From Sulfuritalea sp. (GTDB taxonomy: Bacteria; Pseudomonadota; Gammaproteobacteria; Burkholderiales; Rhodocyclaceae), in contig JAUSCI010000019.1 of the NCBI GenBank assembly GCA_030651305.1, positions 1 to 64,000 on the forward strand: a stretch of DNA of 64,000 nt. Reading direction: 5' to 3'. Each line of letters opens with the position of its first letter. The first letter of the stretch is position 1. The translations under genes and the position numbers were made by a program. Positions 54,048-64,000 of this stretch are shown piece by piece. The notes below the pieces were generated by a model that searched no databases, was not told where the DNA came from, and saw only the letters and a list, made by a program, of their open reading frames with translations.

Positions 54048-54658
54048 TGACTATCTCGACACGCCGTCCCTCTTTAATCCTTGCTGCTGCCCTGGCTCTT
54101 GAGCTGCTTGCGGCATGCAGCGGCCCGCGCGAATATTTCTCGGTGCTTCCCGATCACGATGGCAAGACTGGTCAGATGGTCGTAACGCCGCGCCAGGGAA
54201 CTGCCTTGACGCTTGATCGAACCAATGCGAGTGCAACGGTTCGTGGTGGCGAGATATCTCCCGCCAAACTGAGCGAGGCGGAGCTCAAGGAAATGTATAG
54301 GGAGGCTCTCTCTGCCCAGCCCATGGCACCCACCCGCTTCCTTATTTATTTTGTCGAGGGCGGCGATATCCTGACCGCTGAATCGCAGCGCGAACTTGAT
54401 AATGTACTTGCTGAAATCAAGAAGCGCCCGGCCCCTGATCTGATCGTGGTAGACCACACCGATCGCATTGGCTCGGTAGCCGACAATGATCGCCTGGCCT
54501 TGAGGCGCGCGGAGAAGGTCCGCTCCCAGCTGGTCGCACAAGGTTTTTCGCCGGAAAGCATCAGTGCATCCGGGCGTGGCGAACGAGAGCCCTTGGTCGC
54601 CACGGCGGATGAAATCGCGGAAGCGCGCAACCGGCGCGTCGAGATCCTGGTTCGATGA
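54044..54658 (+). CDS. OmpA-family peptidoglycan-binding lipoprotein
   Basis: This 204-residue lipoprotein (lipobox LLAAC, Cys25) has an OmpA-like C-terminal domain (about 100-204) with VVDHTDRIGSVADNDRLALR and ASGRGEREP. The usual Gly before HTD is Asp here, a mild deviation. It should anchor to peptidoglycan. It is coupled by four-base overlaps to both the FecR gene and the WD40-caspase gene. Confidence 0.88.
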   Translation: MMTISTRRPSLILAAALALELLAACSGPREYFSVLPDHDGKTGQMVVTPRQGTALTLDRTNASATVRGGEISPAKLSEAELKEMYREALSAQPMAPTRFLIYFVEGGDILTAESQRELDNVLAEIKKRPAPDLIVVDHTDRIGSVADNDRLALRRAEKVRSQLVAQGFSPESISASGRGEREPLVATADEIAEARNRRVEILVR

Positions 54659-57651
54659 AAGTACATCTGGCGGCGCGTTCCTTGTTGCAAGCCTTGCGCC
54701 ACGGTCTTCGCGCCGCAGCGCTCGGTTTCTCCGTGACTGCAGTCCTGGCAGCGCCGAACCTGCCGAAGGATCCCGTGCTGAGAATCGAGACCGGCAGTCA
54801 TCTTGGATTGATCTCCCGCATCAGCGCAGACGCATCCGGACGCTGGATCGTCACCGCTTCCGAAGACAAGACTGCGCGGCTATGGGATGCCCGCAGCGGT
54901 CAGGCCATTGCCGTTCTGCGCCCACCGATCGGCACCGAGAGCCTGGGCGCGGTCTATGCCGCAGCCATATCACCGGATGGGCGCACCGTGGCTTTGGGCG
55001 GTAACTCGGCCTTCGATGGCGGTGGTGGCCATCTGCTTCATCTGTTCGATCGTGCCAGTGCCAGCGTGCCACCGAAGAGCACGCTGACCGGCATGGAAGC
55101 GCCGATCACCCAGCTGGCGTGGTCGCGGGATAACCAGTATCTGGCGATTGGTTTGCGACAGCAAGGCTTGCGCGTGTTTCGCCGCAATCTGCAATTTGTC
55201 GGTGCCGATCCGGAATTCAACGAAGCCGTGTTTGGCGCCGAGTTCGCGGCCGATGGCCGACTCGCCGTCGCCAGTATCGATGGCGCCATCCGCATCTACC
55301 AGATTGGACCCAAAGGGCTGGAGCGCATCGCGCGTAAGCAGGCGCCCGGCGGCAAGCCCTACGGAGTAAGTTTCTCCCCAGACGGGCGTACGCTTGCGGT
55401 CGGCTACCAGGATCAGGCGCGGGTTGATTTGCTGGATGCAAGAAGCCTGGCTGTGGTCCACAGCATTGAACTCAGGGGAGGCAATCTGGGGCGCGTTGCC
55501 TGGTCGTCCGACGGCAGCAGCCTTTTCGCGGCGGGCAGCCATGTCAGCGGTGGCCGCTTTCCTGTGTTCGCCTTTGGTCAGAATGGCCGCGGCTCTAAAC
55601 GCGAAATCGGGCAATTCAGCAATACCGTGATGGCGCTGGCAAGCTTGCCGAATGGCAGCGTTGCCGCAGCCTCGGCCGAACCGGCTTGGGCGGTTTTTGA
55701 CTCGCAGGGGAAAGCTCAGGCGGCCAGCCGTTCTCAAAGCGCGGATTTTCGTGATGCCGGCGACAGCTTTAAACTCAATCCGACTGCAGAGATGGTTGCC
55801 TTCCGCTATTCCTCCGGGGATGGCGGGATGATTTTCGATTTGGGCGCAGGCAGCCTGAAAAGCGGCTCACCTCCGGACAAGACCAACGCCGCGAGAATCA
55901 GCGGGGATTCGAGTGACTGGAAAAACTCTACCGCGCCGCGTTTCAACGGTCGCTTGCTTCAGGTGAAGCCGGGTGAGGTGGCGCGCAGCCTCGCCGTGGC
56001 GCCCAATGGTCGCAGCTTCGTGCTCGGCAGCGAATGGTTCCTGAGGCAATACAGCACCGATGGCGTGGCACTTTGGGAACGCCGCGTGCCGGCAGCGGCC
56101 TGGGCAGTGAATATCAGTGCCGATGGTCGCTGGGTGGTCGCTGGCCTAGGCGACGGCAGTATCCGCTGGCTACGCCTTGATGATGGCGCTGAGCAGATGG
56201 CGCTTTTTATTCACGCTGATCGTGAACGTTGGATCGTGTGGACGCCTTCCGGTTACTACGATACTTCCGTTGGTGGCGAGAATCTGGTCGGCTGGCACCT
56301 CAACCGGGCCTTCAACCAGTCGGCCGATTTCTTCAGCGCCGGTCGCTTTCGTGATCGACTCTATCGCCCGGATGTGATCCAGAAACTGCTGGCCACCGGG
56401 GATGAAAAGGAAGCCTGGCGACTGGCGCAGGCGGATCTGGCCGCCCTCGAAGCGGCGAATGCCGAACCCGCACGAGTCCAGGCGAAGGCAAAGCCCGACG
56501 CCAAGGAGCGCAAACCGGCCGTTGCCACTCTGGTGGCTGCCGCCGCTCCGGCGCGGCTTGTCGAAATCGTGCCCCCCGTCATCGAACTGCAATCGGATAG
56601 CCAGATGGAAACTACCGGCAATATGGTGAAAGTGCGCTACGCCGTGCGTACTCCGCCGGATGCGCCGGTCAAGGACGTCAAGGTTCGTGTCAACGGCCGT
56701 CTCGATCGAAGCATCAAGCCTGTAGCCCTGCGTGGGGTGCAAGGGGATATCGCGGTGCAGGAAGTACAGGTGCACGTGCCGCCCGGCAAGGATGCCGAGA
56801 TCCTGCTGATTGCCGAAAACCGGAATGCCAAGTCGGACCCGATTAGCATCAAGGTAAGTCGCGCAACCGAGGCGAAGATGCCTGTTGCCAAGGACAAAGC
56901 CGACTTCGAAACGCTCTATATGCTGGTGGTCGCGGTCAACAAATATCCCGCGCCCAATGATCTGGCGAGCCCCGTCAAGGATGCCAATGCCTTCAAGTCG
57001 CAAATGGCCCGTATTGCCAACCCGCCGGCAGGTGTGCGCAAGATCTATGACAAACTCGAATTCAAGATGCTGACTGACGAGACCGCAACGCGGGAGGCAA
57101 TTCTTGACGGCCTCGGCTGGCTCAAGGCGAACGTCAAGGAAAAGGATGCCGGCGTATTGTTCCTCGCCGGCCATGGTATTGCCGAGGGCGCGTCGTATTA
57201 CTACGTTCCCTTCAAGCTTGGCGGCATGGCCGGCAAGGCGGCGGAGTGGGTGCCAGGGGATCAAATCGTCGGCACCCTGCAAAGTTTGCCGGGGCGCGCC
57301 ATGTTTTTTCTCGACGCCTGCTATTCCGGTGCCCTCACCAATCAGGCCTCTGCAAAAGGGTCGAACCCAACCGACATGATCAACAAGATCGACGATGAAC
57401 GGGGCGTCACTATCTTTGCATCGTCTACGGGCAAGGAGAAATCCGGCGAGGACGATGAAAATGGATTTTTCACCAAGGCCTTGATCGAAGGACTGCGGGG
57501 CAAAGCCGCGGACAAGGAGGACAATCTGGTCTACCCCACCGGGCTCAAGCGTTATGTCACGCGGCGGGTCAAGGAGTTGTCGAACAACGAACAGAGACCC
57601 TTCATCAGCGACCGAGGGGTCGATGAGCCCATCGCCATCGTCATCAAATAA
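54655..57651 (+). CDS. WD40-repeat / caspase-like fusion protein
   Basis: This 998-residue protein has a probable N-terminal signal segment (about 15-35), a WD40-type propeller (about 40-530, e.g. GRWIVTASEDKTARLWDARS near 62), a linker with coiled charged sequence (about 580-640), a beta domain (about 645-740) and a C-terminal caspase-like domain (about 755-998). Catalytic His is in FLAGHGIAEGASYY (about 838) and Cys in LDACYSG (about 885). It is the second caspase homologue in the cluster. The propeller could gate the protease. Confidence 0.88.
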   Translation: MKVHLAARSLLQALRHGLRAAALGFSVTAVLAAPNLPKDPVLRIETGSHLGLISRISADASGRWIVTASEDKTARLWDARSGQAIAVLRPPIGTESLGAVYAAAISPDGRTVALGGNSAFDGGGGHLLHLFDRASASVPPKSTLTGMEAPITQLAWSRDNQYLAIGLRQQGLRVFRRNLQFVGADPEFNEAVFGAEFAADGRLAVASIDGAIRIYQIGPKGLERIARKQAPGGKPYGVSFSPDGRTLAVGYQDQARVDLLDARSLAVVHSIELRGGNLGRVAWSSDGSSLFAAGSHVSGGRFPVFAFGQNGRGSKREIGQFSNTVMALASLPNGSVAAASAEPAWAVFDSQGKAQAASRSQSADFRDAGDSFKLNPTAEMVAFRYSSGDGGMIFDLGAGSLKSGSPPDKTNAARISGDSSDWKNSTAPRFNGRLLQVKPGEVARSLAVAPNGRSFVLGSEWFLRQYSTDGVALWERRVPAAAWAVNISADGRWVVAGLGDGSIRWLRLDDGAEQMALFIHADRERWIVWTPSGYYDTSVGGENLVGWHLNRAFNQSADFFSAGRFRDRLYRPDVIQKLLATGDEKEAWRLAQADLAALEAANAEPARVQAKAKPDAKERKPAVATLVAAAAPARLVEIVPPVIELQSDSQMETTGNMVKVRYAVRTPPDAPVKDVKVRVNGRLDRSIKPVALRGVQGDIAVQEVQVHVPPGKDAEILLIAENRNAKSDPISIKVSRATEAKMPVAKDKADFETLYMLVVAVNKYPAPNDLASPVKDANAFKSQMARIANPPAGVRKIYDKLEFKMLTDETATREAILDGLGWLKANVKEKDAGVLFLAGHGIAEGASYYYVPFKLGGMAGKAAEWVPGDQIVGTLQSLPGRAMFFLDACYSGALTNQASAKGSNPTDMINKIDDERGVTIFASSTGKEKSGEDDENGFFTKALIEGLRGKAADKEDNLVYPTGLKRYVTRRVKELSNNEQRPFISDRGVDEPIAIVIK

Positions 57652-57679
57652 GCCAAACATTACCGACTGGAGAAATGCC

Positions 57680-58402
57680 ATGAACCAAAACTGCCTGCGT
57701 CGCCCTCTTGCCGCTGCTATCGCCCTTGTTTTCCTGGCAAGCTCAAGCGGTTGTGCGACAAACCCCGACGGCAGCTTCAAGAAGAACGCCGACGGCACTT
57801 TCGTCGTGGACGACAAGGCCAAGGGGGCGCTGATTGGCGCTGCCGCTGGTTGCGCTCTGGGCAGCGCCACGGGTGCAGGTTGCGCCAAGGGGGCGGTGGT
57901 CGGAGCGGTCGCCGGAGCCCTGATCGGCTGGTACTTCGAATCGAAAAAGATCGCAAGTGCTCAGCAGGTCAATAAGGAATACGCCTCTATCAAGACCAAG
58001 AAGGACAAGGTTGAACTGCCAAAGAAGGATGTGGTACCGGCGAGTTTCAGCACCAAGGTTACAACGGCTGCGCCGGATGCTTCCGGCCAGAAGGAAGTCC
58101 AGCTCACGTCCAGCACCGACATGATCGGGTATGGCGATAAGGTGCCCGAGGTACAGCAGAAATACGCCATCTACGACGAGAACAACAAGTTGGTCGAAGA
58201 GAAGACGGAAAAGGTCGCTGCAGTGGATGGCGCCGGCCGCTATCAGACCAATTCGAAGTTCAAGCTGCCGGCAGCAGCCAAGGGCAAGACCTACACGGTC
58301 AAGACCACGCTGGTCAGCAACAACAAGACCTACAAGGAAAACAGCTACAAGGTGGCCTTTGCCGACGACGGCCGCGTTATCGCGCTGGCGATGGCGAACT
58401 GA
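57680..58402 (+). CDS. Glycine-zipper lipoprotein
   Basis: This 240-residue protein has a lipoprotein signal ending SSSGC (Cys about 25), a glycine-zipper membrane region (about 50-85, GALIGAAAGCALGSATGAGC) and a C-terminal domain of unknown type with Thr/Lys-rich strands. It starts at 57680, preceded by CTGGAGA; an in-frame upstream extension overlaps the previous gene and is rejected. It is the last plus-strand gene and faces the minus-strand amyloid-like cluster. Confidence 0.8.
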   Translation: MNQNCLRRPLAAAIALVFLASSSGCATNPDGSFKKNADGTFVVDDKAKGALIGAAAGCALGSATGAGCAKGAVVGAVAGALIGWYFESKKIASAQQVNKEYASIKTKKDKVELPKKDVVPASFSTKVTTAAPDASGQKEVQLTSSTDMIGYGDKVPEVQQKYAIYDENNKLVEEKTEKVAAVDGAGRYQTNSKFKLPAAAKGKTYTVKTTLVSNNKTYKENSYKVAFADDGRVIALAMAN

Positions 58403-58449: not shown

Positions 58450-58480
58450 AAAAAAAGAAGGCGGGGTCGCCCCCGCCTTC
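58450..58480 (-). terminator. Intrinsic terminator of the minus-strand cluster
   Basis: A perfect 10-bp stem GAAGGCGGGG/CCCCGCCTTC (58457-58480) with a TCGC loop is followed, on the minus strand, by seven T (58456-58450). It lies 25 bases past the stop of the last minus-strand gene and closes that operon. On the plus strand no T run follows. Confidence 0.9.
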
Positions 58481-58505
58481 CCGTCAAGCAACAGCTGTGA
58501 ATGTA

Positions 58506-58826
58506 TTACTTGCCGCCGATTACGCCGGCTTCGTTGGCGGCGGTGTTGCCCTTGCCCTGGGCTACCGCGGTCGTGTTCTTCTGGCTGGCCTTGATCTTGG
58601 TGTTGCCCTGGATCTGCGTGCCGCCCTTGATCGCGCCGGCTGTGTTCTTCGCCGTGTTGCCCTCGCCTACTGCGACGGCCGTCGTGTTTTCCTGCTTGGC
58701 CTTGATGTCGGTGTTGCCTTGAATCTGCACGCCTTGCGCGTTCGTCGAAGTCATGGACTTGCTTTGAGCAAAAGCCGCGGTGGACAGAACTGCGGTGAGA
58801 GCGATGAGTGCAATATGGGTACGCAT
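58506..58826 (-). CDS. Small exported curlin-like repeat protein, copy 1
   Basis: This 106-residue protein has a signal peptide (cleavage after AAFA, about residue 20). The mature part is two imperfect 36-37-residue repeats: each begins VQIQGNT/TQIQGNT, then K-x-x-Q-x-NTTAVA-x-G-x-GNTA-x-N-x-AG-x-I. The G-x-G-N-x-A core and alternating polar/hydrophobic residues resemble curlin repeats of CsgA/CsgB. It shares a cluster with a CsgG-like gene. AAGGAG lies upstream. Best guess: secreted fibre subunit. No cysteines. Confidence 0.75.
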   Translation of the reverse strand: MRTHIALIALTAVLSTAAFAQSKSMTSTNAQGVQIQGNTDIKAKQENTTAVAVGEGNTAKNTAGAIKGGTQIQGNTKIKASQKNTTAVAQGKGNTAANEAGVIGGK

Positions 58827-58862
58827 GGTTTACTACTCCTTTGTTAAAAAAGTGGATGTTGC

Positions 58863-59177
58863 CTATTTACCGCCGATTACGCCTGCTTCGTTTGCTGCCT
58901 TGTTATCCTTGCCAATCGCAAGAGCCGTTGCGTTCTTTTGCTCGACCTTGATCTTGGTGTTGCCCTGGATCTGGGTGCCGCCCTTGATGGCGCTGGCTGT
59001 ATTCTTGGCCTCATTGCCCTGACCGGTAGCGACCGCCGCAGTGTTTTCCTGCGCCGCCTTGAGGTCGGTATTCCCCTGAATCTGGACGCCCTGCGGATTG
59101 CTGGAGCGCATGGTTAGCTGCGCGAATACGGGGGAAGCGATAAGGGCAGAGGCAATGAGGATAGTGATGGTACGCAT
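58863..59177 (-). CDS. Small exported curlin-like repeat protein, copy 2
   Basis: This is a 104-residue paralogue of the next gene, clearly a tandem duplicate: signal peptide MRTITILIASALIASPVFA, then repeats VQIQGNTDLKAAQENTAAVA...GNEAKNTASAI and TQIQGNTKIKVEQKNATALA...ANEAGVI. The second repeat has lost one Gly-Asn-Thr (GKDNKA). The start at 59177 has AGGAG upstream; an in-frame extension to 59195 is unlikely. Confidence 0.75.
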   Translation of the reverse strand: MRTITILIASALIASPVFAQLTMRSSNPQGVQIQGNTDLKAAQENTAAVATGQGNEAKNTASAIKGGTQIQGNTKIKVEQKNATALAIGKDNKAANEAGVIGGK

Positions 59178-59237
59178 GCTACGTCTCCTGACCATGAATA
59201 TTGACGGTGAAACCGAACTGAAGAAGCATGCCCGCTG

Positions 59238-59843
59238 TTAGCCAGCGACAACCTTGAAGACGACACGACGATTCTTGGGATCGTTCGGCGCGAGGCCCGC
59301 TGCCGGATTGCCCGAGCCCTTGCCCAGCGGCACCAGACGCTTGCGTTCGATACCCGCCTTTTCCGTAATGTAGTTGACCACCGAACCTGCCCTGTCCTTC
59401 GACAGAGCCATGTTCCTGTCGGCATTGCCGGTCGAGTCGGTATGGCCTTCCACGATCACGCAACGATCGGGGGCAAGCGCCAGAATCTTCGCAATGCTGG
59501 ACAAGGTACCTTCGGAGCTTTGTGAAACCCGGGCGCTTCCAATCTGGAACTGAATTGAAAAATCAACCGCATTGGCTTTTACGTCAGGCGGGAGATTGGC
59601 ACAGTCCAGAGCTGCTGCCGGAGCGTTGGCCGCAGCCGGAGAGCCGGCGTTGTCAAAAACGATGGCCCGCGTTTTTGCTTTCCTCTTGACACTGTCGCCA
59701 TCACCGGGCGCCGTCATGGCCCGTTCAAGATCCTTGAGCTTCGCGGCGTCGTCATCAGCGGCAACAGCCTGGCCGCTGCTCATGGCCAGAAGAATCAGAC
59801 CACACAGCAACGCGGACGTCGCAGGGCGAAAATTGGTTTTCAT
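59238..59843 (-). CDS. OmpA-family outer-membrane/periplasmic protein
   Basis: This 201-residue protein has a signal peptide (about 1-30) and an OmpA-like domain (about 95-201) with the canonical VEGHTDSTGNADRNMALSKD and GKGSGNP. A lysine/arginine-rich spacer lies between. Start 59843 is preferred (TAAGGAG upstream). It should tether the amyloid-like locus to peptidoglycan. Confidence 0.9.
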   Translation of the reverse strand: MKTNFRPATSALLCGLILLAMSSGQAVAADDDAAKLKDLERAMTAPGDGDSVKRKAKTRAIVFDNAGSPAAANAPAAALDCANLPPDVKANAVDFSIQFQIGSARVSQSSEGTLSSIAKILALAPDRCVIVEGHTDSTGNADRNMALSKDRAGSVVNYITEKAGIERKRLVPLGKGSGNPAAGLAPNDPKNRRVVFKVVAG

Positions 59844-59854
59844 AGCTTGGCTCC

Positions 59855-60157
59855 TTATTTGCAAATGTTGATGACGTTTTTGGTTGTGACCACGATGTCC
59901 TTCGGCGCCTTCTCACCCGCTTTTACGGTACCGACATTGACATCATTGCAGCCACCGCCGCGTTTGCTGCCGATATTCACTACATCCTTCTTGAATCGGT
60001 CATCCTTGATCGACCCGTCGGTCCATGCCTTGGCCTTGGCGTTGTTGATCTTGGTTTGGGACCTGGCATCCACGCCCTGCTCCGCAAAAACCACGGAAAC
60101 TGCCAAGCCCAGAACCAGCCCTGCGCAAGCTCGCAGGAAGCGCTTATTTGCATTCAT
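59855..60157 (-). CDS. Small exported Cys-containing protein
   Basis: This 100-residue protein has a signal peptide (about 1-24) and a mature part with VVNIGSKRGGGCNDVNVGTV and a C-terminal VTTKNVINICK. The two mature cysteines and Asn/Gly/Val-rich strands resemble the C-terminal half of the neighbouring curlin-like gene 60144-60446, but no clear repeat is present. ATG 60157 is used; a TTG nine bases upstream is an alternative. It overlaps that gene by 14 bases. Function unknown; minor subunit or assembly factor is possible. Confidence 0.6.
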   Translation of the reverse strand: MNANKRFLRACAGLVLGLAVSVVFAEQGVDARSQTKINNAKAKAWTDGSIKDDRFKKDVVNIGSKRGGGCNDVNVGTVKAGEKAPKDIVVTTKNVINICK

Positions 60158-60446
60158 CTTTGACAATCGCTCCTATATTGGTACAGGTTTTCTTGTTGCG
60201 TCCGCCGACTACCGTAGTTACGTTGGTTGCGCTGACGGAGATTCTGGTATCACCCTTCTTGTCGCCCTGGATTACGCCAATCCTGTTTTTCGCTACGTTA
60301 TTTTCTCCTGTAGCGACCGCCGTGGTGTTCTGTGTCGTGACGTTGATTTCGGTATTACCCTTGATGCGGGTCTGGCTGGTCTGGGCCATGGACCCAGTGG
60401 CAATCAGGACCACGGCTGTGGTTACGCCAATGCATGATGCCTTCAT
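60144..60446 (-). CDS. Small exported curlin-like repeat protein, copy 3 (divergent)
   Basis: This 100-residue protein has a signal peptide (about 1-22), then IKGNTEINVTTQNTTAVATG plus ENNVAKNRIGVIQG, a good copy of the curlin-like unit, and a second divergent unit GDTRISVSATNVTTVVGGRN with two cysteines near the C-terminus. The start at 60446 has GGAG upstream. It follows the HExxH gene by two bases and overlaps the small Cys gene. Confidence 0.7.
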   Translation of the reverse strand: MKASCIGVTTAVVLIATGSMAQTSQTRIKGNTEINVTTQNTTAVATGENNVAKNRIGVIQGDKKGDTRISVSATNVTTVVGGRNKKTCTNIGAIVKDECK

Positions 60447-60448
60447 GT

Positions 60449-61360
60449 TTATTCTCCAATATTCCAACGTAACGGCAACGTGGTCGGCGGCCTGCCCTTG
60501 CGGAAGGCATTCCTCATTGCCTCGAGTTCTTCGTTCGTAACGCCCAGCTTGCGGGCGCTGAATGATGACGGATCCGGAGTGAACATCAGATAGGCCTGCG
60601 TTTCATTGATCACCAACGCATCGGATCCGACGGCATAGTTGTACTTGCCAAGGAAAGCCTTGAACGCTTCACGCTGGGCATCCGTCAGCGACTCCTGCCA
60701 AAAACGCAGACAGTACTGCGCGTAATAGGCGTTGGTGTAGTACTCGCCATGGGCCATCTCGTGCAGCGCGATTGCAAAGCGCGCCGTCGCGTTGATAAGC
60801 GGCTGACCGGCGCTCTTTTCCTGCGTTTGAGGGATCGAAAGGATGACATTGTTTGGCTCGACGGCCTGCCAGAAGCCACGCCAGTCACGGATCATTCCTT
60901 GCGCAACCAGAAAATCCCTTATTGCAGTTTCTTCTGGGTTCAGCGGCACCTTGTCGCGCAGGGCAAAATTGAAGAACTGCACGAGCTCATGGACCATGAG
61001 GTCGTGACCGAAGGCGAAATCCGATTCGGACCGCTTTGCCGCGACAAGGCGTCCCGCCATTTCCTGTTCGGTAAGTACTCGCGGATAGGGCTCGGTGGTT
61101 TGCTGTTCGATGAACTGGGTGACTCGATTGAAGCTTCGCCCCTGATAGGCAAGACCGGGGAAGTCAAACACATAAATCTTCGGATTGTCGGCGTAACGCC
61201 AGATTATGAGCTGAGCTGAGCGGTTGTTGACGATCTGGTTGAAGCCGGCACTTACGGGTTGTGGTGCTGCGCCATGCGCAAGGAAAGCCATTGCGGCCGC
61301 CAGAATCAACAGTCCGAAACGGACAACAGTCATACCACTTGGTTTCTGGATCGACATCAT
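60449..61360 (-). CDS. Exported protein with HExxH motif (putative metallopeptidase)
   Basis: This 303-residue protein has a signal peptide (about 10-31). A zinc-peptidase-like motif HEMAH is at residues 200-204 within FAIALHEMAHGEYY, and a possible third ligand Glu253 lies in NETQAYLMF, 49 residues later, a spacing compatible with gluzincin-like folds. No known family was recognised. In an operon with a CsgG-like channel it could process subunits or mature the fibre; this is inference. Confidence 0.65.
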   Translation of the reverse strand: MMSIQKPSGMTVVRFGLLILAAAMAFLAHGAAPQPVSAGFNQIVNNRSAQLIIWRYADNPKIYVFDFPGLAYQGRSFNRVTQFIEQQTTEPYPRVLTEQEMAGRLVAAKRSESDFAFGHDLMVHELVQFFNFALRDKVPLNPEETAIRDFLVAQGMIRDWRGFWQAVEPNNVILSIPQTQEKSAGQPLINATARFAIALHEMAHGEYYTNAYYAQYCLRFWQESLTDAQREAFKAFLGKYNYAVGSDALVINETQAYLMFTPDPSSFSARKLGVTNEELEAMRNAFRKGRPPTTLPLRWNIGE

Positions 61361-61369
61361 ATTCCCCGC

Positions 61370-61777
61370 TTATCTTTTGAAATACTCGAGTCGGTATGCG
61401 TTGGCGCGGGCAGAATGCTCGCGCGCAGTCGCCTGACGAGGGCTTGTGGCCGACAGCGTACCACTGCCGGCAGGATCGACCAACAGGAACCCGGTCGAGC
61501 TTTCGCCGCGACGGTTGTAAGTACCCCAAGCCATGGCGCGCTGACTCATGAAGCCGGCGTTGCCACGAACATTCGGCACCAGGACGATACCGGGCATGGT
61601 GCCTGGCGCGCCCTGAAAGCCGGCAGCAAACTGGTTTCCACTGACCCAAACCCCGGAATTTGTTTGCAGAAGGATGCCTGCCCCGGCCTGACCTGGCGCA
61701 ACGGCCAATATCAATGCCAGAGCGGCCGATGCAAAGCCAGCAAGCAAATCAGTTTTGCTCAACACTGACGTTTCCAT
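61370..61777 (-). CDS. Exported RAxAxxY-repeat protein
   Basis: This 135-residue protein has a signal peptide with start METSVLSKTDLLAGF (61777; the longer in-frame start gives a hydrophilic N-terminus). The mature part has Gly-rich strand sequence (GILLQTNSGVWVSGNQFAAG) and the repeated motif SQRAMAWGTY and SARANAYRL, resembling RAKARxY motifs in the gene at 62180-62803. It overlaps the previous gene by 29 bases. Function unknown. Confidence 0.6.
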   Translation of the reverse strand: METSVLSKTDLLAGFASAALALILAVAPGQAGAGILLQTNSGVWVSGNQFAAGFQGAPGTMPGIVLVPNVRGNAGFMSQRAMAWGTYNRRGESSTGFLLVDPAGSGTLSATSPRQATAREHSARANAYRLEYFKR

Positions 61778-62096
61778 TTTTTCCCCACTGAATCCGATAG
61801 GACTTGCCGGTTTTCTTCGATGTGTAGCTGGCTTTTCCACGCTGGATCTTTTCGCCATCAATGAATACATCATCGTTGATTACGGCTATCCCTTCCATTT
61901 CCACGTCAGCGTCGATCGACCCCGAGGAATTGCTGGCCGTGCTACCGGGGCCTACGCTAACTGCGGTATTGCCCTTGCCCTTTTTCACCTTTACGCTGCC
62001 TCCTGGAGCATCTACCGTCACCTGCCCGACAACGAGGGCTGAAGTGGTGGCCAGCAACCAAAAACAGGCGATGACGGAAGGTGACAACAGCTTCAT
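61749..62096 (-). CDS. Exported protein with one curlin-like unit
   Basis: This 115-residue protein has a signal peptide (about 1-24) and VKVKKGKGNTAVSVGPGSTA SNSSGSID, a single unit with the same G-x-G-N-T-A core as the paralogues, followed by a separate C-terminal region (VFIDGEKIQRGKASYTSKKT). It could be a nucleator or cap rather than the major subunit. It overlaps the next gene start. Confidence 0.65.
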   Translation of the reverse strand: MKLLSPSVIACFWLLATTSALVVGQVTVDAPGGSVKVKKGKGNTAVSVGPGSTASNSSGSIDADVEMEGIAVINDDVFIDGEKIQRGKASYTSKKTGKSYRIQWGKNGNVSVEQN

Positions 62097-62179
62097 TTTG
62101 AATTTACCAAAACCTTGCGTGAATAACGTTTTAGGGTACTTTAGGTTGACAACGCCGGCTCGCCGTGACTTTTGTCACG

Positions 62180-62803
62180 CTACTGCAGCGCGCACCGAAC
62201 CTTGAATGGCTTGTTATCGCGCATGATGAAAAATATTCCACCAGGCTGCATGTCGTCGCCAATGCGTCCGGCAACGTTGGCAATCAGTTTTCCGCAGGAG
62301 ACGATGGGAATGCCATCCGACCCGATCCTCTCGATGACGACCGTGTTGTCTGTGGAAACGTAACTGCGCGCCTTTGCGCGGTTTCCCTGGGCACGCTCCG
62401 AGTTCGTCGCTCCCGGGTTCAAGGAATCCGGCGTGGCGGGGATCGGAACCTGCGTCGCTCCTTGCTGATACAGGCGTGCCTTGGCCCGACTCTGTGAAGC
62501 GCCGCTGTCCGGTTGCCGCCGGGGGCCGAGCAGACCCTCTTCCTCCTCCTCCTCCTCGGGCATGACGATGATCGTGGGGGCTGACCCCGACTCCTGATAT
62601 GCCCTGGCTTTGCCGCGAACCTCTGCCGCCGATTTCGCAGATTTCTTTCCGCTGTCAGGCTGAGCCGGAACCACAATTTCGGCCAGCAGAATAACGCCTG
62701 GGGAATCCAGCCTTGCTGCTTCCCCGGCATTCACCGCACCCGCCGCCGAGAGCAGCCAAGCTCCCGTCAGCAGGAACAGACGGGTTGCAGCGATACTCCT
62801 CAT
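62180..62803 (-). CDS. Exported repeat protein with RxKARxY motifs and a poly-Glu tract
   Basis: This 207-residue protein has a signal peptide (about 1-26), three motifs VRGKARAY, SRAKARLY and NRAKARSY (about 62, 107 and 144), a seven-Glu run (about 82-88) encoded by GAG/GAA triplets, and a C-terminal domain with two cysteines (VSCGKLIANVAGRIG, VRCALQ). It lies six bases after the CsgG-like gene. Family not recognised; possibly an accessory of the channel. Confidence 0.6.
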   Translation of the reverse strand: MRSIAATRLFLLTGAWLLSAAGAVNAGEAARLDSPGVILLAEIVVPAQPDSGKKSAKSAAEVRGKARAYQESGSAPTIIVMPEEEEEEEGLLGPRRQPDSGASQSRAKARLYQQGATQVPIPATPDSLNPGATNSERAQGNRAKARSYVSTDNTVVIERIGSDGIPIVSCGKLIANVAGRIGDDMQPGGIFFIMRDNKPFKVRCALQ

Positions 62804-62809
62804 GGCGTA

Positions 62810-64000
62810 TCAGCGATTGACGGTTATATCGATCTGACTGACCATTGCGGCCGGATTGATCTGGCGAAACTGATTGACGATTTCGTCAACCGACTTGACC
62901 GGCAATGGCGTCAGATCTTTTGCCCCCACCAGTGTTTTCGGAACGACCAACTCGCGATCGGCACCAATACAGGCCACTTTCTCGCGACCGGGTTGGTCGA
63001 AGCGAATCTTGAAGCCTCCACTTGGCAGCCGGACGCTGCTGCTGCCTTTGAGCGTCGGATTGGACTGGAACTGATTGGGAAAAATGCGTGCCGTGTTGTG
63101 TGCGTTGTCTTCGTAGTAGCAGTAGGCCGTGCCGTCGCTCGAAAGCGAGAGATTCATGTTGAGAAACTCACCGACGCGATAGGCCGGACGTCCGCCCTTT
63201 TCGCTATCCAGATTGACGCGGAACGCGCTGGCCGAAGGTGCCGAAGGTGTCGAGGCACCTGGCGGAAGATAGGCTGGAGGAGCTGGCGGAGCGGGCGGTG
63301 GAGCGCCAATTGCCGAGGCAACCCCAGGCACGTTCAATGGCTTGATTGCCGGCAAAGCGGCCAGGCTATTCTGTACATCGTCGAGCAAGCTGGCGTACAG
63401 GTCGAAGTTGATCTGTCCGTTGGCCACCAAACCGGCTGTAGCCTGGTATTCGCCCACGGCTTGCTTGAGTTCGTCATTGGCGACGCCATCGACCGGCCCC
63501 TTGTAGCGGTTCATGCTGCCACCCAGCTTGCGCTGAATGAACAGGATGCGCTCCTTGTCCTGCAACATGTCGTAGCTTTCGCGGGCCTGGTCGCGAATCA
63601 GGGGATTGGTGATGTCGGTATCCAGGCAACGCCAGTAGGGAACTTGCGTAAATTTGCCGAGAGTTTCGATCAAGCTCAGTTCGAGCAGCGCCCGGGTCGT
63701 TGCGCCCAGCCCTTCCGAACGACTGTTGTCGAGGTTGAAACTCAGCCCGACTTTCCCCAGTTTGCCGCCGGCTTCGCCGGACTTGCCGCCCTTGACCATG
63801 ACCATCGTGTTGGAGGTGCTGGTAACGGGCAGGATCTTGCGCGTGGCTGCTTCACCCACGCTCATGTCCATGCTGAGCAGATCGAAGGACGCGTCCTCCG
63901 AGTAGCCCAGATCCAGAAAGAACAGTGAAATACCCGCGCCCTTGCTCTTGCGTACGGTGTTATCGTCCATTTGCGTAATGGAGCCGCGAATGTAATAGTC
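62810..64000 (-). CDS. CsgG/HfaB-like secretion protein with peptidoglycan-binding and DUF4384 domains (5' part missing)
   Basis: The 396 residues visible, open at the window edge, begin inside a CsgG-like domain: IRGSITQMDDNTVRKSKGAG, a long barrel-hairpin-like stretch, then GATTRALLELSLIETLGKF and VPYWRC, all aligning with CsgG/HfaB C-termini. A peptidoglycan-binding-1-like domain follows (about 140-205), a Pro-rich linker, then a DUF4384 domain (about 250-360; ARIFPNQFQSNPTL). CsgG forms the outer-membrane channel for curli and holdfast subunits. This is a multidomain variant, heading the minus-strand cluster. Its upstream half and promoter are outside the window. Confidence 0.85.
   Translation of the reverse strand, partial: DYYIRGSITQMDDNTVRKSKGAGISLFFLDLGYSEDASFDLLSMDMSVGEAATRKILPVTSTSNTMVMVKGGKSGEAGGKLGKVGLSFNLDNSRSEGLGATTRALLELSLIETLGKFTQVPYWRCLDTDITNPLIRDQARESYDMLQDKERILFIQRKLGGSMNRYKGPVDGVANDELKQAVGEYQATAGLVANGQINFDLYASLLDDVQNSLAALPAIKPLNVPGVASAIGAPPPAPPAPPAYLPPGASTPSAPSASAFRVNLDSEKGGRPAYRVGEFLNMNLSLSSDGTAYCYYEDNAHNTARIFPNQFQSNPTLKGSSSVRLPSGGFKIRFDQPGREKVACIGADRELVVPKTLVGAKDLTPLPVKSVDEIVNQFRQINPAAMVSQIDITVNR

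Follow-up and report, generated by a model that had tools for sequence, protein, structure and literature searches.

Introduction

Ten minus-strand genes of Sulfuritalea sp., led by a gene for a CsgG/HfaB-like channel, raise the question of what kind of surface system they encode and whether this system is a form of curli. The genes lie at the end of the window, the whole stretch of 64,000 nucleotides analyzed here, which represents positions 1–64000 of contig C43 (182,679 nt) in a 3.9-Mb genome. We propose an outer-membrane export system that works like curli and HfaABD, in which a wall-tethered CsgG/HfaB-like pore would export stackable, amyloid-like repeat subunits with the help of several accessory proteins; we give this reading a probability of about 0.68. 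The direct results concern homology, a conserved gene order, joint occurrence in near relatives, the structure of the repeats and promoter-like sites common to several genes, and from these we infer the pore, the export, the stacking into fibres and every accessory role. No description of this unit was found in the titles and abstracts of the open-access literature among the matches listed.

A conserved ten-gene unit

The ten genes run from 58506 to C43:64408, beyond the window end, and form one conserved unit. The genes and associated sites are as follows; export signals of the products were judged by eye.

62810–64000, on to C43:64408, minus strand: channel gene (C-terminal part in the window), with CsgG/HfaB-like domain, PG_binding_1 and DUF4384
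62180–62803, minus strand: g2, exported, three copies of a helical motif, C-terminal Cys-pair domain
62157–62178, minus strand: palindromic site GTGACAAAAGTCAC, with a twin upstream of the channel gene at C43:64654–64675
62125–62151, minus strand: promoter-like TGTCAAC-N16-CGTT upstream of g3, with further copies at the channel gene and a remote subunit gene
61749–62096, minus strand: g3, exported, one GKGNTA unit and a conserved C-terminal domain
61370–61786, minus strand: g4, ending in R(A/S)RANAYR..Y, a motif common to g2; overlaps g3
60449–61360, minus strand: g5, HExxH protein, probable metallopeptidase outside named families
60144–60446, minus strand: g6, minor repeat subunit, two repeats, C-terminal C.NIG..V...C
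59855–60157, minus strand: g7, small Cys-pair protein, beside repeat subunits in several clades
59238–59843, minus strand: g8, OmpA-domain protein, probable peptidoglycan anchor
58863–59177, minus strand: g9, repeat subunit, two 37-residue repeats
58506–58826, minus strand: g10, repeat subunit, two 37-residue repeats, predicted two-layer beta stack
58455–58482, minus strand: terminator-like stem of 12 pairs with T-run, closing the unit

The sequence-only reading had described ten co-directional, closely packed genes ending in a terminator, and this layout holds. The widest intergenic gap is 83 nt (62097–62179), and two gene pairs overlap, g4/g3 at 61786/61749 and g7/g6 at 60157/60144. The stem and T-run (58482–58455) follow the last gene; terminator-like sites numbered nine against 7.5 expected from shuffles, and the stem at the unit end is the longest among the sites listed.

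Gene order was compared in a near-relative set of 61 genomes, comprising the own genome and 60 relatives, with G011 from the same genus as the source. Full-length channel matches occur in six of them, and the subunit is found in the same six. Three more genomes match the channel in part only, one of which (G052) encodes a distant channel relative sharing the N-terminal region. In all six genomes the channel gene, g2–g8 and a further pair of subunit stretches follow one another in identical order; in G032, the last two subunit stretches sit in different, overlapping frames.

A scan of a genome collection yielded 161 channel relatives, the best 80 of which were kept for locus counts. Thirty-five of these loci (L058–L092) are mostly from Betaproteobacteria, two being filed under Desulfobulbaceae and Deltaproteobacteria; five (L058, L059, L060, L062 and L089) are contigs from genomes counted already. 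Within the 35 loci, g2 was detected in 32, g3 in 31, g5 in 30, the subunits, g7 and g8 in 29 each, and g4, the least conserved member, in 18. Subunits are missing from six loci. One of these, L060, is a genome's second channel copy; in four the contig ends within 1,529 nt; and in L088 the rest of the unit is truly absent. A single gene order is shared by all 25 loci (25/25) that have the channel gene, g2, g3, g5, g7 and g8 on one strand. The repeat proteins are co-conserved with the channel in near relatives (the same 6/61 genomes, 29/35 loci), and on this count the sequence-only reading was not refuted.

The channel protein

The complete channel product comprises 532 amino acids, from an ATG start at C43:64408 to a stop at 62810, so that the window end cuts its gene. 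The CsgG/HfaB-like domain occupies residues 45–265 approximately, in the N-terminal half, and is followed by PG_binding_1 and then by DUF4384. Both additional domains had been named from the sequence and were recovered here, DUF4384 with E=2.2e-11 and PG_binding_1 with 21.5 bits, just under its 23-bit cut-off.

Alignment of the channel to E. coli CsgG with hhalign gave P=92.3% and E=5.6e-7, compared with P of 0.3% and 0.1% for two unrelated E. coli proteins used as controls. The curated CsgG model PF03783 has no match to the window channel itself, and profile methods are therefore needed to reveal its relation to CsgG. At E<=0.05, PF03783 matches 16 of 46 channel homologues, whereas the HfaB model NF037935 matches 45 of 46 (best 4.9e-11); its match to the window channel has an E value of 0.0049 and 16.1 bits, below the cut-off of 300. 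A channel fold model built from nine sequences reached a mean predicted local distance difference test (pLDDT) score of 38, and CsgG entries top its structure comparison, this ranking being the sole feature we used from a model of such low confidence. A sequence search of solved structures with the channel and alignment profiles returned no channel match. The hhalign result, the HfaB model and the structure ranking place the channel within the CsgG/HfaB family and not outside it, in agreement with the first assignment.

A second channel copy, 78% or 73% identical in two comparisons, lies on the same contig (L045 8385–9947; C43:86388–87941), and no subunit or accessory gene was detected nearby.

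Repeat subunits

Three small exported products (g6, g9 and g10) each hold two repeats of 37 or 35 residues. The period is 37 in g9 and g10, with self-identities of 57% and 43% across the two repeats (0/2000 shuffles each), and 35 in g6, with a self-identity of 33% (13/2000 shuffles). The sequence-only reading had counted four small exported products with G-x-G-N-x-A units and an NTTAVA motif. This is exact for g6 and g10, the only two with NTTAVA itself; g9 has NTAAVA/NATALA instead, and g3 contains a single GKGNTA unit attached to a different C-terminal domain. Across the subunit family, 35 of 117 members, a total that includes duplicate contigs, are without a clear period.

The repeat unit is of the AxGxxN type, and QxGxxN occurs in none of g6, g9 and g10, compared with five times each in CsgA and CsgB. 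AlphaFold2, with one subunit modeled, predicted two stacked beta layers for g10, and the strand positions suggest that the two layers form an open stack and not a closed globule. A sequence search of solved structures with the subunits gave only weak, unrelated-looking matches (best E 0.095). No convincing match was obtained for 93 repeat proteins among the best 25 of 29 Pfam and the best 25 of 31 NCBIfam families listed, and annotation would therefore miss the subunits.

Two further loci show subunit sequences in other surroundings. A remote subunit gene is found just downstream of the gene for a protein of at least 1225 amino acids with YDG and MBG domains (L046 28–4218, G000 C16). At L056 14411–15955 (G004 C172), subunit repeats are followed by a long alanine/lysine/aspartate repeat in one open frame, which later changes composition, perhaps through a frameshift within the repeats.

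Proposed mechanism and accessory products

The CsgG/HfaB-like protein would assemble as an oligomeric outer-membrane pore, anchored at the cell wall through two links, its own peptidoglycan-binding domain and the OmpA protein g8. The small repeat proteins, g9 and g10 with g6 as a minor form, would pass unfolded through this pore to the cell surface. There, each repeat would fold as one beta layer, and the two-layer subunits would stack end to end, building up a surface coat or amyloid-like fibres. The role of nucleator, cap or gate might fall to the Cys-pair protein g7 and to g6 with its Cys-bearing end. By analogy with the FapD protease of the Fap system, g5 might trim or clear periplasmic subunits.

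The HExxH and OmpA proteins recognized in the first reading are both present. The OmpA domain of g8 (E=4.3e-19) makes this protein a probable, putative peptidoglycan anchor. The HExxH of g5 lies in HEMAHGEYYTN, and the Glu of an NE.QAYL motif follows 53 residues past the first His. H199, E200, H203 and N251-E252-x-Q254-A255-Y256-L257 are conserved in at least 97% of 37 homologues, and HExxH is kept in every listed homologue but the truncated L077. No Pfam family matches g5, which is probably a metallopeptidase outside the named families.

The product of g2 contains three copies of the helical motif (E/D)(N/S)R.(K/R)A..Y and a C-terminal Cys-pair domain with AG.IGDD, and it matches no Pfam or NCBIfam family at E<=1. 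A motif matrix trained on g2 scores 14 of 18 g4 products (p<=0.05 against shuffles) and, in part, g7 (14/41); low scorers are g8 (3 of the first 60), g3 (4/37), g5 (0/38) and the subunits (2 of the first 60). Our guess from this shared motif is that g2 and g4 may both dock on the channel. A relationship of g7 to g2 or to the subunits received no support from comparison. Among eight of the ten products searched against PHROGs, the single match was to the signal region of g3 (phrog_5011, E=4.4e-4), which was not used.

Comparison with known systems and alternative explanations

HfaABD of Caulobacter is the nearest described system. Both have an HfaB-like channel, and the excerpts of PMC6707917 describe HfaA as CsgA-like and state that HfaA and HfaD depend on HfaB for targeting, to the outer membrane in the case of HfaA, a small curlin-like surface protein that needs the HfaB channel. 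The present channel differs in carrying peptidoglycan-binding and DUF4384 domains, and it is accompanied by OmpA, HExxH and Cys-pair proteins and by several subunit paralogues. The names HfaA and HfaD appear neither among the NCBIfam hits of the ten products nor among the best 25 of 31 families listed for the 93 repeat proteins, the presence of those models in the library being unchecked.

This kinship raises the alternative that the channel and repeat proteins form a short, holdfast-anchor-like complex that holds polysaccharide, and not extended fibres. The channel family's leaning toward the HfaB model over CsgG, the HfaB dependence of HfaA, the shortness of the two-repeat subunits and the peptidoglycan-binding and OmpA domains, which suggest anchoring, all fit such a complex. 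No HfaA/HfaD match was found among the products, however, no polysaccharide gene was recognized in the unit, and distant relatives encode far longer repeat proteins (391 amino acids with 12 QxGxxN). Since the distant repeat proteins are longer and the subunits are duplicated, a bulk fibre would suit them, and we consider the anchor unlikely, while the sequence does not separate it from the fibre reading.

LpoB, PelC and FlgT are periplasmic scaffolds of the CsgG superfamily. The channel-like protein might likewise be a scaffold rather than a pore, with the repeat proteins as small soluble beta-solenoids of the envelope. The hhalign alignment crosses the hairpin-1 region of CsgG with one four-residue gap, CsgG entries lead the structure ranking, and channel genes of other clades are again linked to exported repeat proteins, all of which make a scaffold improbable.

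A diverged member of the classical curli (csg) system is most improbable in spite of the hhalign relation to CsgG and the QxGxxN in repeat proteins of distant loci, as the curlin-repeat family PF07012 and CsgF (PF10614) match 0 of 11 genomes with the E. coli control positive, g2 and g7 profiles match neither CsgE nor CsgF, the repeat period is 31–37, and hhalign of the subunits to CsgA and CsgB gives P of 3.4% and 1.1%. Curli is excluded as a label for the system because PF07012 and CsgF match none of these genomes; PF07012 is also absent among the best 25 of 29 families listed for the 93 repeat proteins. CsgE has no family match among the ten products, to which that search was limited. The excerpts of PMC3521004 report csgE as missing from alphaproteobacterial curli.

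Curli and the present system share a CsgG-family channel with small exported repeat subunits, and the minimal motif QxGxxN recurs in distant relatives of the latter. They differ in the 37-residue AxGxxN repeat and in the window channel, which has no lipobox. Calling the locus curli-like, with subunits and accessory proteins of its own, is correct only in the sense of "works like" curli: the channel and co-conserved subunits bear it out, but the subunits are not curlin repeats and CsgF is missing. The term is limited further by the channel's more frequent matches to HfaB than to CsgG and by its occurrence in genomes without the subunit family.

Fap (FapA–F) of Pseudomonas is nearest in repeat geometry but has another pore. 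According to excerpts of PMC12392863, Fap repeats of 38–39 residues each form one cross-beta layer with a G.gN core; the period here is 37, and the motif spacing is one residue off by our own reading of the published motif. Each unit includes a peptidase, C39-like for FapD in excerpts of PMC6173800 and a probable HExxH one here, whereas the Fap pore is the FapF barrel (PMC6173800) and the proposed one here is of CsgG type. No Fap-type family, whether FapF barrel or FapD C39 peptidase, is named by Pfam or NCBIfam among the ten products, the only ones searched, with the presence of a FapF model in the library unchecked. Foldseek ranks FapC 1 and 5 of 16 for the subunit model with E values of 1.6 and 3.4, and homology of the subunit to FapC is not established.

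The wider channel family

Beyond the 35 loci, seven (L093–L098 and L111; Rhodocyclus purpureus, Propionivibrio dicarboxylicus, Terasakiella and others) have the channel gene mostly divergent from g7, g8 and the subunits. The remaining 38, largely from Azospirillum and other Alphaproteobacteria, have subunits in 12 and OmpA in 30. When the whole records behind 12 such loci were searched together with the own genome, six of the 13, among them the own, had the subunit, and four Azospirillum genomes all lacked it. At the Azospirillum brasilense locus (L119 7899–12759), genes for a channel, an OmpA protein and a second protein with DUF4384 follow those for two small proteins with HHLLVD in common, and there is no repeat subunit; judging from this locus, the channel family may carry other cargo.

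With a profile iterated on the same loci, g7-like Cys-pair proteins were detected in 29/35 beta loci, 6/7 divergent, 10/38 other and 9/9 further loci; before iteration, g7 was found in five of eight newly fetched loci. Nine of the ten other loci with g7 belong to the 12 with subunits. Owing to this recurrence, we regard the channel, g7 and a repeat subunit as the apparent core, with g2–g5 and OmpA as additions in some clades.

An order-wide survey used an even sample of 200 genomes. The channel profile is matched in 38, ten of them full-length (>340 bits), and three of these ten are the only genomes with the subunit family. Seven full-length carriers lack this family; the neighbourhoods of five were examined (G119, G120, G154, G207 and G169; not G193 and G195), and in each a repeat-like protein with a signal, judged by eye, adjoins the channel. 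Four Q/N-rich proteins of three loci contain QxGxxN, 6 and 12 times in G119 (0.59 and 1.27 expected from shuffles), 4 in G120 (0.13) and 6 in G154 (0.34). Periods of 31 and 35 residues occur among these QxGxxN units, and the proteins have no PF07012 match. The repeats of G207 and G169, without QxGxxN, were seen by eye only. The periodicity screen missed the repeat proteins of L170, L172 and L173, the first backed by QxGxxN counts and the other two by eye only.

Several relatives show additional features. Giant proteins of 1010 and 703 amino acids with subunit-like repeats each lie beside a lipobox-bearing channel relative (L052 10021–13053 and L176 8780–10888), and the L052 channel is without DUF4384. 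A DUF2807 (head GIN domain) protein is encoded between the channel and a second repeat protein at L169 8112–8810. Proteins resembling LuxR-type response regulators, as judged by eye, sit beside repeat genes at L172 9746–10633 and L173 9480–10295; CsgD of curli is LuxR-like.

Regulatory sites

The palindromic site GTGACA(A/T)AAGTCACG.CGAGCC precedes both the channel gene and g3, its only two genome matches at <=3 mismatches, and is followed in each case by TGTCAAC-N16-CGTT. The latter element has three genome matches, located at the channel gene (C43:64622–64648), g3 and the remote subunit gene (C16:3774–3800). A reversed control also gives three, and the weight of the element therefore lies in its places and not in its count. 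Matches fall inside the operon in 2/2 cases in G007, 1/4 in G002 and 1/2 in G011; in six genomes that lack the system, the count is zero or one. The element is a candidate promoter, perhaps for an extracytoplasmic function (ECF) sigma factor, and an ECF factor gene adjoins the G119 locus. A sigma-70 scan gave nothing above chance (one site against 1.9 expected), and Rfam at the gathering threshold gave no matches.

Neighbouring genes

A WD40 and caspase (Peptidase_C14) protein is encoded on the plus strand next to the unit (54655–57651), and caspase-domain proteins are also found near the channel in L119 (14694–17375) and L169 (11382–12350). DUF4384 is named in papers on cyanobacterial orthocaspases among the matches listed. 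A glycine-zipper protein with a DUF7490-like stretch (57677–58402, plus strand) is convergent with the unit.

Discussion

The locus has a fair chance of representing a class of its own. In the fuller form of this proposal, to which we give slightly less than even odds, it would be a third, undescribed class of functional-amyloid machine: a wall-tethered CsgG/HfaB pore whose core is the channel, g7 and interchangeable repeat subunits (37-residue AxGxxN here; QxGxxN, at periods of 31 and 35, elsewhere in the order). Its range would take in Rhodocyclaceae, among them Accumulibacter, as well as Giesbergeria, Gallionella, Desulfobulbaceae and Alphaproteobacteria. Such a class could explain the amyloid adhesins found in activated sludge and in further biofilms.

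Amyloids are reported in activated-sludge flocs and granules (PMC12016536), and we infer that most of their genes are without assignment. In the excerpts of two studies, curli protein in an Accumulibacter granule secretome is reported only from Flavobacterium (PMC12019908) and curli genes in a granule transcriptome only from Kaistella (PMC12016536). The channel occurs, with subunits alongside, in records deposited as Accumulibacter, Azonexus, Propionivibrio and Giesbergeria. The series of repeats from QxGxxN to AxGxxN on one channel family would be useful for defining the cargo requirements of a CsgG-type pore, and the locus supplies named candidate genes for knock-out in cultured strains. It may help to explain the amyloid glue of environmental biofilms.

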